A program made the translations under genes and the position numbers. This document shows, piece after piece, positions 55,793 through 59,909 of a stretch of DNA of 64,000 nucleotides (the stretch's first letter is position 1; each line of letters opens with the position of its first letter). This DNA is from Kangiella sp. HZ709 (GTDB lineage: Bacteria; Pseudomonadota; Gammaproteobacteria; Enterobacterales; Kangiellaceae): the NCBI RefSeq assembly GCF_009674675.1, contig NZ_WKJC01000002.1, forward strand, positions 186,001 through 250,000, written 5' to 3'. The notes under the pieces are model-generated. The model saw only the letters and a list, made by a program, of their open reading frames with translations. It did no database searches and had not been told where the DNA came from.

Positions 55793-57058
55793 TTACTCAG
55801 AAGCAGCTTTTGCTTGAGAATCGTATATGAGTAGAGGCTCTGCCTCACCTTTCACCATTGCTGCATCGATACAAACTTTACTAACATTTTCTAAAGATGG
55901 TAATTCATACATGGTGTCTAATAAAATTTCTTCAAGGATAGAGCGTAATCCTCGCGCACCAGTGCGGCGCTGCATCGCTTTTCGCGCTATCGCTTCTAAC
56001 GCATCTTTTCTAAATTCAAGTTCTACATTCTCTAACATCAACAATTTATTGTACTGCTTAGTAAGAGCATTTTTTGGTTCAGTTAATATACGTACTAATG
56101 CATGTTGGTCGAGTTCTTGCAAAGTCGCTACAATCGGTAATCGGCCAATAAATTCAGGGATCAAACCAAATTTCACTAAATCATCTGGTTCTATATTCTT
56201 AAGCATTTCACCAATCGCTTTACCATCATGAACTTCTTTAACATCAGCGCCAAAACCTATGCCGCCTTTTTCAGTGCGTTCCTGAATAATTTTTTCGATT
56301 CCTGCAAAAGCACCACCACAAATAAATAGAATGTTTGAAGTATTCACCTGTAAGAATTCTTGCTGTGGATGCTTACGACCGCCCTGTGGAGGAACAGAAG
56401 CAACCGTACCTTCGATTAATTTTAATAAGGCTTGTTGTACTCCTTCACCTGATACATCACGAGTGATGGAAGGGTTATCGGATTTTCGTGAAATTTTATC
56501 GATTTCATCGATATACACAATTCCGCGTTCAGCTTTTTCAACATCGTAATCGCACTTTTGAAGTAGCTTTTGAATAATGTTTTCTACATCTTCACCTACA
56601 TAGCCAGCTTCAGTTAAAGTAGTTGCGTCAGCCATGGTGAAAGGCACTTCCAACATTCTGGCTAAAGTTTCGGCTAGCAAAGTTTTACCTGAGCCAGTTG
56701 GACCTATTAAAAGGATGTTACTTTTGCCCAACTCAACTTCTTTATTTTCAGAGGATTGCGGTTCATTCTCAAGTCGCTTGTAATGATTATAAACTGCAAC
56801 TGACAATACTTTTTTTGCTCTCTCTTGCCCGATGACATACTCTTCCAAGAATGCGCTTATTTCTTTTGGCGATGGCAAATCACGACCACCAGCTTCTGCG
56901 GCGATATCTTTAACTTCTTCAATGATGATGTCATTGCACAAATCGACGCATTCATTACAAATAAATACACGTGGACCAGCTATTAGTTTTTTCACTTCAT
57001 GTTGGCTTTTGCCACAAAAAGAACAATACAGTGTTTTATTATCGTTGCTATCGCTCAT
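55793..57058 (-). CDS. clpX: ClpX ATPase subunit of ClpXP protease
   Basis: This 421-residue AAA+ unfoldase feeds substrates to ClpP. The N-terminal zinc-binding domain has Cys12, Cys15, Cys34 and Cys37 (CSFCGK and CNEC). Walker A is GPTGSGKT, Walker B is [10 protein letters not shown], and the ClpP-contact IGF loop is within [15 protein letters not shown]. Normally clpP lies directly upstream; here a plus-strand gene of 1.9 kb separates them, so clpX should have its own promoter in 57059-57300. Confidence 0.97.
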
Positions 57059-57300: not shown

Positions 57301-59214
57301 GTGATGGAGCTTATTATCATTCAAACATTAAAACTTATAGGTCTATCAATACCCTTGTTACTATTGACAGCCTGCTTATCTATCAACAAGAAGAAAGTTA
57401 CTCTGGACGATAAGCCATATCTTAGATCAGACTCTAATGACATTGCCGTACAACAATTACATCCATTGAACTCTCCTATTACAGTAATAGCAGATGTACA
57501 TGGCGACTTCCCAACTCTGCAAAAGTTATTACAAGCTGGTAAGCTCATCGATGCTCAAAACCGTTGGATTGCTGGTAAACGAATCCTTGTCAGCGTAGGC
57601 GATTTAGTTGATCGAGGTCCTGACTCACGTCAGATACTCGACTTTTTCATGGAACTAGAAAAGCAAGCTGCTAAAGCTGGTGGCGCCTTTTACATGGCGC
57701 TTGGCAACCATGAAGTCATGAATATTCGTGGCGATCTACGCTACGTATCCGATCCGGAATTTGCCGCATTTAAAAATGATGAACCTATTGGGTTACGTCA
57801 ATCCACCTACCAAGCTTTTATTAAAAAGTCCAAATTGACTGACTCAGACAAAAGCCGACAAGAATTCCAGAATCAATACCCTGAAGGTTTTTTTGGTCAT
57901 ATTAAAATGTATGCCCCTGATGGCAAATATGGTCGATGGCTACTCAGCAAGCAAATGATAGTGAATGTCCAAGATAAATTGTTTGCCCACGGAGGTTTTT
58001 CACAAGACTTAATTGATAGCGGTAAGAGTCTTCAAGAACTCAATCAGCAGTTTATTTCTGATTTAAGTCGCTATAGCCAGTTATGGCGTGAGCTTGTTAA
58101 TGCTGGACTTTTCCAATTTTCGGATTCAAAACGTGAGCGGTTAAATATTGCTAAACGGTTCATTGCTGGCAATTTAAAAAGCTCTCTAGCTGATGACGAG
58201 TCTCTCAAACTAAAAACTCAGCAGTTTATAGCTTTAGCTGACTCTTTACTTTTCGACAGCTTTGGGCCTACTTGGTATCGCGGCAATATGCTATGTCATG
58301 AGTATGTTGAAGAAAACACCATTGATAATGTTTTACGACACTTTGGAGCTACTCAAATATTTTTAGGTCACACTCCAGACAGCAGCTTGACAGTTCGCTC
58401 ACGTCTTAATAACAAAGTCATCATGCTCGATACAGGAATGTCTTCCGCATACTATAAAGGCAATCCGAGTTTAGTTTCTATTAATAAAGCTGAGTTAAAA
58501 GTGCTAAACCTCAATGATGCAAACAATACTTCCCCCATTAGTGAATCTGCAAGAAAACCATTAAATCCTCACGGGTTTAATGATAACGAAATAAGCAAAA
58601 TATTTCTTCGCAGTAAACCCAAGTCAAGCCCAGGTCAAGATCTGTCTATTCTTACTTTTCCACTTAAAGATGGGACTATCCAAGCAGCTTTTAGAGAAGC
58701 TAAACCTCACCAGGTAAAAAAAGAGTTAGCCGCTTATCAATTAGATAGATTATTAGAGCTTCACCTAGTTCCATTTGTAATGGAGTATGATTATCAAGGT
58801 AAAGCCGGCATTCTTCAGTATTTACTAAAAAACTCAAAAACTAAACATGAGATTGAAATAGAAAATATTAGTCTTAAGGGTTATTGCAAACCTGAGCAAT
58901 CACAAGAATTAATGCAAATATTTGATTGGTTAATTGCTAATACTGACAGAAGCAATGAGGATCAATTGTATATTCCAGCGAACTCCCAACTTTGGTTAAT
59001 AAATCATGCCGGTGCATTTAGGGAGCTAGATTCTGATAAAAGTTTCTTCAGCGATATGCCAAACAGAGTATCTCCTTTGTTTATAAAATCTCTTAACCTA
59101 CTAAACAGAGATAATTTAAATAAAAGAATTGGGAGGTATATTTCTAAGCAGCAAATTGAACATATACTGCTACGACGTGATCTACTTTTACAACAGTCTG
59201 CTAAAAGTAAATAA
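57301..59214 (+). CDS. Lipoprotein with PPP-type phosphatase domain and kinase-fold-like C-terminal domain
   Basis: This 637-residue protein has a signal peptide with lipobox LTAC (Cys25). A metallophosphatase domain (about residues 58-390) has all motif groups: Asp65/His67 (ADVHGD), Asp101 with GDLVDRG, GNHE at 135-138 and GHTP at 356-359. MYAPDGKYGRWL is typical of Shewanella-like PPP phosphatases. After a linker, residues about 445-610 read like a HipA/Fam20C-type kinase fold: AAFREAKPH, ELAAYQLDRLL, then IANTDRSNEDQLY (Asp549) and LWLINHAGAFR (Asn568 where kinases usually have Asp). Kinase activity is therefore doubtful. It should sit on the periplasmic or surface side. The start is GTG at 57301 or ATG at 57304. 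It lies inverted between clpP and clpX. Confidence 0.8.
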   Translation: MMELIIIQTLKLIGLSIPLLLLTACLSINKKKVTLDDKPYLRSDSNDIAVQQLHPLNSPITVIADVHGDFPTLQKLLQAGKLIDAQNRWIAGKRILVSVGDLVDRGPDSRQILDFFMELEKQAAKAGGAFYMALGNHEVMNIRGDLRYVSDPEFAAFKNDEPIGLRQSTYQAFIKKSKLTDSDKSRQEFQNQYPEGFFGHIKMYAPDGKYGRWLLSKQMIVNVQDKLFAHGGFSQDLIDSGKSLQELNQQFISDLSRYSQLWRELVNAGLFQFSDSKRERLNIAKRFIAGNLKSSLADDESLKLKTQQFIALADSLLFDSFGPTWYRGNMLCHEYVEENTIDNVLRHFGATQIFLGHTPDSSLTVRSRLNNKVIMLDTGMSSAYYKGNPSLVSINKAELKVLNLNDANNTSPISESARKPLNPHGFNDNEISKIFLRSKPKSSPGQDLSILTFPLKDGTIQAAFREAKPHQVKKELAAYQLDRLLELHLVPFVMEYDYQGKAGILQYLLKNSKTKHEIEIENISLKGYCKPEQSQELMQIFDWLIANTDRSNEDQLYIPANSQLWLINHAGAFRELDSDKSFFSDMPNRVSPLFIKSLNLLNRDNLNKRIGRYISKQQIEHILLRRDLLLQQSAKSK

Positions 59215-59229
59215 CCAGCAGGGATTATT

Positions 59230-59260
59230 AAGAGCACTGCAAAAAACAGTGCTCTTTTAT
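59230..59260. terminator. Bidirectional terminator between the phosphatase gene and clpP
   Basis: A 9-bp stem AGAGCACTG/CAGTGCTCT with a 7-nt loop is followed by TTTTATTTT on the plus strand, and the stem is also usable on the minus strand for clpP. Confidence 0.85.
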
Positions 59261-59261
59261 T

Positions 59262-59909
59262 TTATTTTCTTGAATTAATTACTGAATCAATCAAACCATA
59301 TTCAACAGCTTCTTCAGCAGTCATAAAGTTATCACGATCCGTATCCCGCTCTAAATCTTCAACCGGGCGGCCGCAATGACCTGCCATTATTGAGTTCAAG
59401 CGACGCTTTAAATCAATAATTTCTTTAGCATGGATTTCAAAATCAGATGCTTGGCCTTGGAAACCACCTAAAGGTTGGTGAATCATCATACGAGAATTAG
59501 GCAAACAATGACGTTTACCCTTGGCGCCACCGGTTAATAAAAAAGCACCCATACTGGCCGCTTGACCAATACAAACAGTACTAACGTCCGGTTTAATAAA
59601 CTGCATGGTATCGTAAATCGCCATGCCGGATGTAACCACACCGCCTGGCGAGTTTATGTATAAATAAATGTCTTTATCCGGATTTTCGGACTCTAAAAAC
59701 AACATCTGAGCGATAACAGAGTTTGCCATGTAGTCTTCTACTGGGCCTACTAAGAAAATCACGCGCTCTTTTAGCAATCTAGAATATATGTCATAAGAGC
59801 GCTCACCTCTTGAAGTTTGCTCTACGACCATTGGGATCAAGCCACCGGCATAAGGATCAGTAATTATCGACTCTTGGTTGGTAATAATAGGATTTTTAGG
59901 GTTGTTCAT
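59262..59909 (-). CDS. clpP: ClpP serine protease subunit
   Basis: This 215-residue protease forms the ClpXP/ClpAP chamber. Ser119 lies in [12 protein letters not shown], His144 in [12 protein letters not shown] and the Asp in the segment [12 protein letters not shown] short N-terminal propeptide is expected. Length matches E. coli ClpP (207). tig is upstream on the same strand with a terminator between them. Confidence 0.97.

Follow-up and report, generated by a model that had tools for sequence, protein, structure and literature searches.

A 64,000-nucleotide stretch of the genome of Kangiella sp. HZ709 (contig NZ_WKJC01000002.1, positions 186,001 to 250,000; hereafter the window) carries at 57301..59214 on the forward strand a gene for a 637-amino acid (aa) lipoprotein, which we propose to be a secreted phosphatase with a pseudokinase lobe, the remnant of a periplasmic phosphorylation unit. 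The common view is that the periplasm contains little or no ATP, which raises the question of how a bacterial kinase could function after secretion. Relatives of the window gene in which the kinase-like domain is intact usually keep an ATP/ADP carrier-like gene of the NTT type, here called NTT-A and often directly adjacent, suggesting that bacteria have a means of supplying energy for phosphorylation beyond the cytoplasm. On the basis of the architecture, motif states, gene neighborhood, and co-occurrence counts that we observed, we give somewhat better than even odds to the reading that this carrier feeds ATP to a periplasmic kinase-phosphatase and that the window gene is a phosphatase remnant of this unit, kinase and carrier having been lost. 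A carrier that tracks kinase integrity would be a concrete, testable answer to the question of how secreted kinases are supplied with ATP and would give NTT carriers a possible role in free-living bacteria, and the window gene would serve as a natural loss-of-function case with the phosphatase kept and both kinase and carrier gone. The parts appear to be of known kinds (a PPP phosphatase, a Fam20/HipA-like kinase, and an NTT carrier); what seems to be new is the fusion and its link to the carrier, for neither of which our literature searches, covering open-licence papers, found a paper.

The open reading frame (ORF) starts with a GTG at 57301 that is directly followed by an ATG, and it is open through to 59214. 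Residues 1–25 (57301..57375) comprise an apparent signal peptide with a lipobox, LLTAC with Cys25, after a hydrophobic stretch, a call that rests on a simple pattern and hydropathy and not on a dedicated predictor. The original prediction, made from the DNA sequence, had named this lipobox, which is found in four of 22 aligned fused proteins, namely, those of the window, G007, G053, and G073 (G and L numbers are our handles for genomes and loci). Residues ~57–412 (57469..58536) correspond to a PPP-type (Shewanella-like) metallophosphatase domain according to Pfam, PDB search, and alignment. The Pfam model Metallophos matched the window protein with 58.2 bits (cut-off 21.5), and the closest solved relatives among the best 60 of 79 PDB matches were 2z72, 2zbm, and 1v73 (118.8 bits), which we take to be Shewanella phosphatases. 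The alignment revealed the metal-ligand motif D65-V-H67 (57493..57501), D101, D104, and R105 (57601..57615), the GNHE motif at residues 135–138 (57703..57714), H230 (57988..57990), and H357 (58369..58371). Nine of these residues (D65, H67, D101, D104, R105, N136, H137, H230, and H357) are invariant in all 22 aligned fused homologs, so that the motifs DxH, GDxxDRG, and GNHE together with the two later His metal ligands are complete in every fused protein, the window protein included; the four metallophosphatase motif groups of the original prediction are thus all present. In the larger set described later, 101 of 105 fused genes have all seven scored phosphatase residues; two of the remaining four are truncated, one contains masked letters, and that of G960 has Ser for the first His. 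The window gene is, therefore, predicted to encode a PPP-fold phosphatase with a complete active site. Related secreted phosphatases in which, by eye, repeated FN3-like domains take the place of the kinase domain were also seen (L062:6055-7884 and L020).

Residues 418–637 (58552..59211) form a degraded domain resembling Fam20, HipA_2, and PI4K-like kinases. Three C-terminal pieces that had been read as following the order of a kinase, ELAAYQLDRLL, NTDRSNEDQLY, and LWLINHAGAF, are present, and alignment with intact homologs confirmed this order. No kinase model in Pfam scored above its cut-off for the window protein or its intact relatives: the window protein reached 19.9 bits with HipA_2 (PF20613; cut-off 27, best relative 26.1), and Pfam Fam20C gave no match to it at E ≤ 1 (best relative 20.9 bits, cut-off 26.8). 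TIGR03843 matched the window protein with 17.7 bits (cut-off 172.4, best relative 47.1) and the intact relative L032 with an E value of 1.9e-12, still below the curated cut-off. When a profile of 15 intact domains was searched against the PDB, it matched Fam20A (2.5e-6), Fam20B (1.2e-5), and Fam20C (5.4e-5 and 3.6e-4), and the only other matches were weak ones to the kinase OspG. A PDB search with the window sequence itself gave matches to the phosphatase part only, among the best 60 of 79, and the Fam20 likeness of the window domain therefore holds only via its relatives. The assignment of the C-terminal region as a kinase-like lobe is, thus, supported through its homologs. The claim of such a lobe with a lost metal-binding Asp stands on homology, and so does the more general claim of an extracytoplasmic phosphatase with a pseudokinase, the protein being presumably secreted. 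A 96-aa frame in G029 (L140, G029:C109:26374-26643) matched the C-terminal portion of another kinase-like domain; this genome also has a standalone version of the domain.

To describe the state of the kinase, we scored four positions: the beta-3 Lys, the D and N of DRNxGN, and the D of IDH. All 15 intact fused genes of our first set have K/D/N/D, as does a standalone kinase-like domain with its own leader and without a phosphatase (L032/L063). The window protein departs from this active-kinase set with R/D/D/N (R465, D549, D554, and N568). It was Asn568 (59002..59004) that the original prediction had singled out as replacing the metal-binding Asp, and it does align with the Asp of IDH, which is kept in 15 of 15 intact fused homologs and in one standalone protein. 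There are two further substitutions, Arg465 (58693..58695) for the beta-3 Lys and Asp554 for the metal-binding Asn, the latter within a catalytic-loop remnant, DRSNED (residues 549–554, 58945..58962), that reads DRNxGN in most intact relatives. Among the other degraded genes, that of G007, the sister with 81% identity, has K/N/D/N, that of G053 has I/gap/D/Q, and that of G564 has F/E/N/S. The full set comprises 105 fused genes from 96 genomes, the standalone kinase of G029 being left out. All four residues are retained in 34 of these genes, three in none, two in 6, one in 23, and none in 42; because no fused gene keeps three residues, the intact class (34 of 105) and the degraded class (two or fewer residues; 71 of 105) are cleanly separated. 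The catalytic Asp is kept in two of the 71 degraded genes, one of which is the window gene. A survey of the position of Asn568, which had been suggested as a check, revealed Asp in intact genes; most degraded ones have another residue there, such as Asn, Gln, Ser, Glu, or Gly, although 17 of the 71 keep Asp.

The fused gene is present in the genus and beyond. The query matched in 15 of 20 genomes of the genus, 14 of which encode the fused protein, and the fused gene was also found in genomes of more distant families, from which we conclude that the architecture is not a chance product. Named relatives of the window protein are limited to two records of "uncultured Kangiella sp." (81% and 49% identity), and a search of plasmids gave no full-length relative, neither of the two matched records reaching 80% coverage. 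In trees of the phosphatase part, the window, G007, and G053 sequences form a group beside the intact G073 and G032, and the degraded G564 falls outside; the two groupings have support of 95/99 and 96/94 in one tree and 94/90 and 99/76 in the other. By parsimony, the kinase would have been lost twice within the genus, with further losses in other families. Between the window gene and that of G007, the nonsynonymous substitution rate (dN) is 0.164 in the kinase part and 0.051 in the phosphatase part, a ratio of 3.25, compared with 1.84 and 1.96 in two other degraded pairs and 0.68–1.70 in eight intact pairs. The ratio of nonsynonymous to synonymous rates (dN/dS) for the kinase part of the window–G007 pair is 0.21, which indicates that the lobe is not free of constraint. 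Because the kinase part evolves faster and yet has this low dN/dS, a noncatalytic role for the degraded lobe is plausible; the original prediction had suggested that the lobe may sense or bind a substrate.

In Kangiella genomes with an intact kinase, the carrier-like gene NTT-A lies between the fused gene and clpP. A linked carrier was identified in 10 of the 20 genomes of the genus, all with an intact kinase; of those without one, four have a degraded kinase and six have no fused gene (two of the latter are only 55% and 86% complete). The only carrier-like gene in the window's genome is a distant paralog elsewhere, with 28% identity. NTT-A is a class defined by score and coverage. The TLC ATP/ADP transporter model PF03219 (cut-off 21) was passed by nine of 13 NTT-A proteins scanned, with 22.2 bits for L056 and 29–45 bits for eight carriers of other families; L055 and L057 are below the cut-off, L265 has 18.0 bits, and L124 has no match. 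A C-terminal He_PIG immunoglobulin (Ig) domain is above cut-off in 11 of the 13, including L055, L056, and L057. A profile of nine NTT-A proteins matched ADP,ATP carrier protein 1 in the PDB (9j3n and 9j3o; E value 3.6e-11) and otherwise gave two weak Ig matches, and a tree of 61 carrier sequences placed NTT-A apart from the distant paralog, NTT-B. A 6401-aa ORF in the window's genome (G000:C3:336994-339750) has several Ig repeats that resemble the C-terminal domain of the carrier.

Among the first 22 genes, the rule that an intact kinase has a linked carrier described 14 of 15 intact genes, and none of seven degraded genes had one. This rule failed in the wider set, in which NTT-A directly follows the fused gene in 21 of 32 intact and six of 64 degraded genomes; because 11 of the 32 intact genomes are unlinked and six of the 64 degraded ones are linked, we replaced it by a genome-wide rule with exceptions. 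NTT-A and the fused gene lie side by side in several families, in differing orientations and genomic surroundings. The two genes are typically convergent, at distances of –97 to +55 bp, and are on the same strand in G044, G064, and G098, and two copies of the pair occur in G980 (in tandem; L182/L186) and in G967 (on two contigs; L184/L185).

A search of the order of G362 identified the kinase domain in 126 of 396 genomes. For the wider set, regions were fetched from 72 new genomes of these 126, in addition to G362 itself, which had been included earlier; the rest, mostly of one genus, were left out. Genome-wide carrier data were available for 87 of the 96 genomes. NTT-A is present anywhere in the genome in 28 of 32 intact genomes but only 17 of 55 degraded ones (Fisher p 4e-7, ignoring relatedness), and in genomes at least 90% complete the counts are 24 of 24 and 10 of 40. 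Of the 270 genomes of the order without the fused gene, 14 were included, and each of these has low-scoring carriers only. Within Kangiella, the carrier and the kinase residues are absent together at two places in the tree, with intact species between them.

Many of the degraded genomes that keep NTT-A encode another candidate user of ATP. In 13 of these 17 genomes, a separate kinase-like gene (SK) with an apparent leader is near the fused gene or the carrier. There are 14 SK genes in total, 13 of which have K/D/N/D; the SK of G1007 has Leu at the aligned Lys and belongs to a genus whose other two sampled members (G961 and G973) keep an intact fused domain. In an alignment of the SK profile with the fused domain, the catalytic residues matched in position (hhalign probability 98.1, E value 7e-14), and in fetched regions with an intact fused gene, SK matched nothing except the fused gene itself. 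When fused and separate kinases are both counted, 41 of 45 genomes with a kinase contain NTT-A, compared with four of 42 without one; for SK, this count covers the fetched regions. The four remaining degraded genomes with NTT-A are G1336, G959, G971, and G1084. In G1336, a contig ends at the place in question. In G959 and G971, NTT-A adjoins a large PPDK_N gene whose product has an apparent leader, an arrangement shared by the intact G1015 and G954. In G1084, a single 870-aa frame (L260:601-3210) encodes the carrier (residues 17–439; 16.7 bits with PF03219, cut-off 21), a hydrophobic linker, and a CotH-like domain (residues 462–793) that matched a CotH-like neighbor family with an E value of 1.5e-57 and PF08757 with only 12 bits; this carrier–CotH-like fusion is a single case on one 4.9-kb contig. 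A weakly CotH-like gene (e.g., L230:3177-4301 and L065:8479-9546) is present in 46 fetched loci; 41 are left when four refetched loci and the fusion of G1084 are set aside, and of these most have a degraded fused gene and no NTT-A, and none has an intact fused gene.

Carriers of other subgroups were also observed beside a large PPDK_N ATP-grasp protein with an apparent leader (L250:2121-5036, L251, L258, L259, L262, L263, and L264). These proteins are ~970–980 aa in the three that were scanned, with PPDK_N scores of 82–103 bits, and several of the loci contain a second protein, in one case weakly beta-lactamase-like. It is possible that the PPDK_N protein is a second user of ATP outside the cytoplasm.

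Several observations weigh against the proposed reading. NTT-A does not form a supported clade, and intermediate carriers of four genomes (G526, G1052, G1096, and G1146), all degraded, are on the same side of the carrier tree and were counted as NTT-A absent; counting them as NTT-A changes the genome-wide result to 28 of 32 and 21 of 55 (p 6e-6, ignoring relatedness), that for genomes at least 90% complete to 24 of 24 and 14 of 40, and the number of carrier-bearing genomes without a fused or separate kinase to eight of 42. The search profile for NTT-A contained two sequences of the G020/G044 lineage and so favored that lineage. NTT-A and the fused gene mostly converge rather than sharing a transcript, so that only in G044, G064, and G098 could they belong to one operon. 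The fetched regions of G950, G1001, and G1313 end close downstream of the fused gene, so that linkage is not visible there. Eleven intact genomes lack an adjacent NTT-A; four intact genomes of 79–89% completeness (G003, G995, G1028, and G984) lack NTT-A altogether, and in the intact G997, G1005, and G1022 it is represented by gene fragments. In the gene tree, the state of the kinase differs in only four independent pairs with good support; the carrier is concordant in ~2.4 of them, contrary in 0.0, and shows no difference in 1.6 (sign test, median p 0.5), and an earlier, smaller test with three pairs gave p 0.25. With relatedness counted, the co-loss is therefore not significant, there being too few independent events. 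SK genes were sought in fetched regions and not genome-wide, which biases their count, and four degraded genomes with NTT-A show no separate SK, as detailed earlier. The CotH-like gene beside degraded fused genes might be an active kinase without a carrier; if it is an active secreted kinase, it works without NTT-A. Lastly, structure prediction was poor: AlphaFold2 models from three-sequence alignments had a predicted local distance difference test (pLDDT) score of 49.4 for the window's C-terminal domain and 43.3 for a full-length intact relative, and a Foldseek search with the former listed nearly only kinases, none at E ≤ 0.001. We base no claims about fold on these models.

The mechanism that we propose would operate as follows. 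The ancestor of the window protein may have been a two-way enzyme that put phosphate onto an envelope substrate, which could be a protein or a glycan, and then took it off again, and the adjacent NTT-A would have traded ATP from the cytoplasm for the ADP that the kinase produced. In the lineage of the window, the carrier would then have been lost and the kinase residues would have decayed with the phosphatase staying, leaving a periplasm-facing lipoprotein phosphatase with a putatively catalysis-dead Fam20/HipA-like kinase domain, the remaining lobe of which is probably a docking or structural part. More tentatively, with the balance slightly against it, we consider a generalization: some Gram-negative bacteria may perform ATP-dependent extracytoplasmic phosphorylation by means of dedicated exchangers (NTT-A, mostly with an Ig domain) that serve kinase-phosphatase fusions, separate secreted kinases, a carrier-fused CotH-like domain, and secreted dikinase-like (PPDK_N) enzymes, and loss of the exchanger would lead to the death of the kinase and the survival of the phosphatase.

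Other explanations differ in what they make of the C-terminal domain. That it is a cap or accessory domain of the phosphatase with no kinase lobe at all would agree with the failure of every Pfam kinase model to pass its cut-off and with the low model confidence; we regard this as very improbable given that the domain also occurs on its own behind a leader (L032/L063), that K, D, N, and D are invariant in 15 aligned intact relatives, and that the intact-domain profile matches Fam20 and TIGR03843 an intact relative. The window domain could instead be an altered enzyme that is still active, for example, with Asp554 and Asn568 as a swapped metal pair or with another transfer chemistry. Some pseudokinases are known to catalyze other reactions, the window protein retains Asp549, and the dN/dS of 0.21 is compatible with such activity. 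However, the sister gene with 81% identity has Asn at 549 and G053 has no residue there, and 42 of the 71 degraded genes have lost all four residues, with no common pattern, making this an improbable reading.

For the association with the carrier, shared ancestry and slow rearrangement might account for neighborhood and co-occurrence with no function implied. The small number of independent events, the nonsignificant paired sign tests, and the constant setting beside clpX across the fetched Kangiella regions all fit this explanation, and we rate it as unlikely rather than negligible: adjacency is found in several families with altered orientation and setting, other carriers of the class adjoin a different kinase-like gene or are fused to one, and in Kangiella the joint absence of carrier and residues at two places in the tree is interrupted by intact species. 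A salvage function, in which the secreted phosphatase processes outside nucleotides that the NTT then imports and the kinase target is incidental, is suggested by the fact that characterized NTTs import nucleotides, as a study of these carriers describes (PMC5381601), and by a weak resemblance of the phosphatase domain, below cut-off, to diadenosine tetraphosphate (Ap4A) hydrolases. We consider it quite unlikely, since NTT-A follows the state of the kinase and not that of the phosphatase, the residues of which are kept almost throughout, and since 13 genomes pair the carrier with a separate kinase-like gene after decay of the fused domain. We favor ATP supply by the carrier to a periplasmic kinase-phosphatase, with the window gene as its remnant.

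The components of the proposed unit resemble known systems to different degrees. Like the eukaryotic secretory-pathway kinases Fam20A, Fam20B, and Fam20C, all three of which were matched by profile in the PDB, the kinase domain here would be extracytoplasmic, and Fam20A is itself named a pseudokinase in the PDB, as the window domain appears to be; unlike them, it is bacterial, fused to a PPP phosphatase, and below the Pfam Fam20C cut-off. In animals, SLC35B1 is an ATP/ADP exchanger that feeds secretory-pathway kinases, a parallel to the role proposed for NTT-A. The HipA_2, TIGR03843 (SCO1664 family), and PI3_PI4_kinase (PF00454) models share the order of catalytic loop and metal loop, but all are below curated cut-offs, and the domains described here are behind a leader and fused to a phosphatase. 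The Shewanella cold-active phosphatase has the same metal and histidine motifs; its solved chains of 336–342 aa, however, are too short to include a kinase domain of this kind. NTT-A resembles the NTT/TLC carriers of plastids, Rickettsia, and Chlamydia in its PF03219 matches and its match to a solved carrier, and differs from them in its He_PIG Ig domain and its link to secreted kinases. The CotH spore-coat kinases (PF08757) are secreted kinase-like proteins as well, and a weakly CotH-like gene is near many degraded fused genes, but it stands as a gene of its own in other genera, scores below the Pfam CotH cut-off wherever scanned, and was not found in the region of the window. NTTs have been described in free-living bacteria with an unknown role (Major et al. 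2017, PMC5381601); the main text of that paper, when searched by word, contained no "kinase," "periplasm," or "Kangiella." The parts of a survey of the Legionella kinome (PMC9758233) that we consulted concern other kinase families.

The window gene is antisense between clpX (55793..57058, reverse strand) and clpP (59262..59909, reverse strand) within a tig-clpP-clpX-lon run, names that we read from the sequences themselves; the fetched Kangiella regions have the same setting beside clpX. The 47 bp that separate the window gene from the stop of clpP (59215..59261) contain no carrier gene. A reading of the C-terminal domain as part of a HipA toxin-antitoxin system was dropped because the immediate neighbors are clpX and clpP (no HipB profile search was made). 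In G053, in which the kinase is degraded, the fused gene is followed by a PilY1 and pilin-like cluster (L054:8510-14662) at a position occupied by the carrier or clpP in the other Kangiella regions that were fetched. In G526, a gene with a PycTM (Pycsar effector) domain (96.6 bits; L066:7615-8292) directly follows the fused gene.

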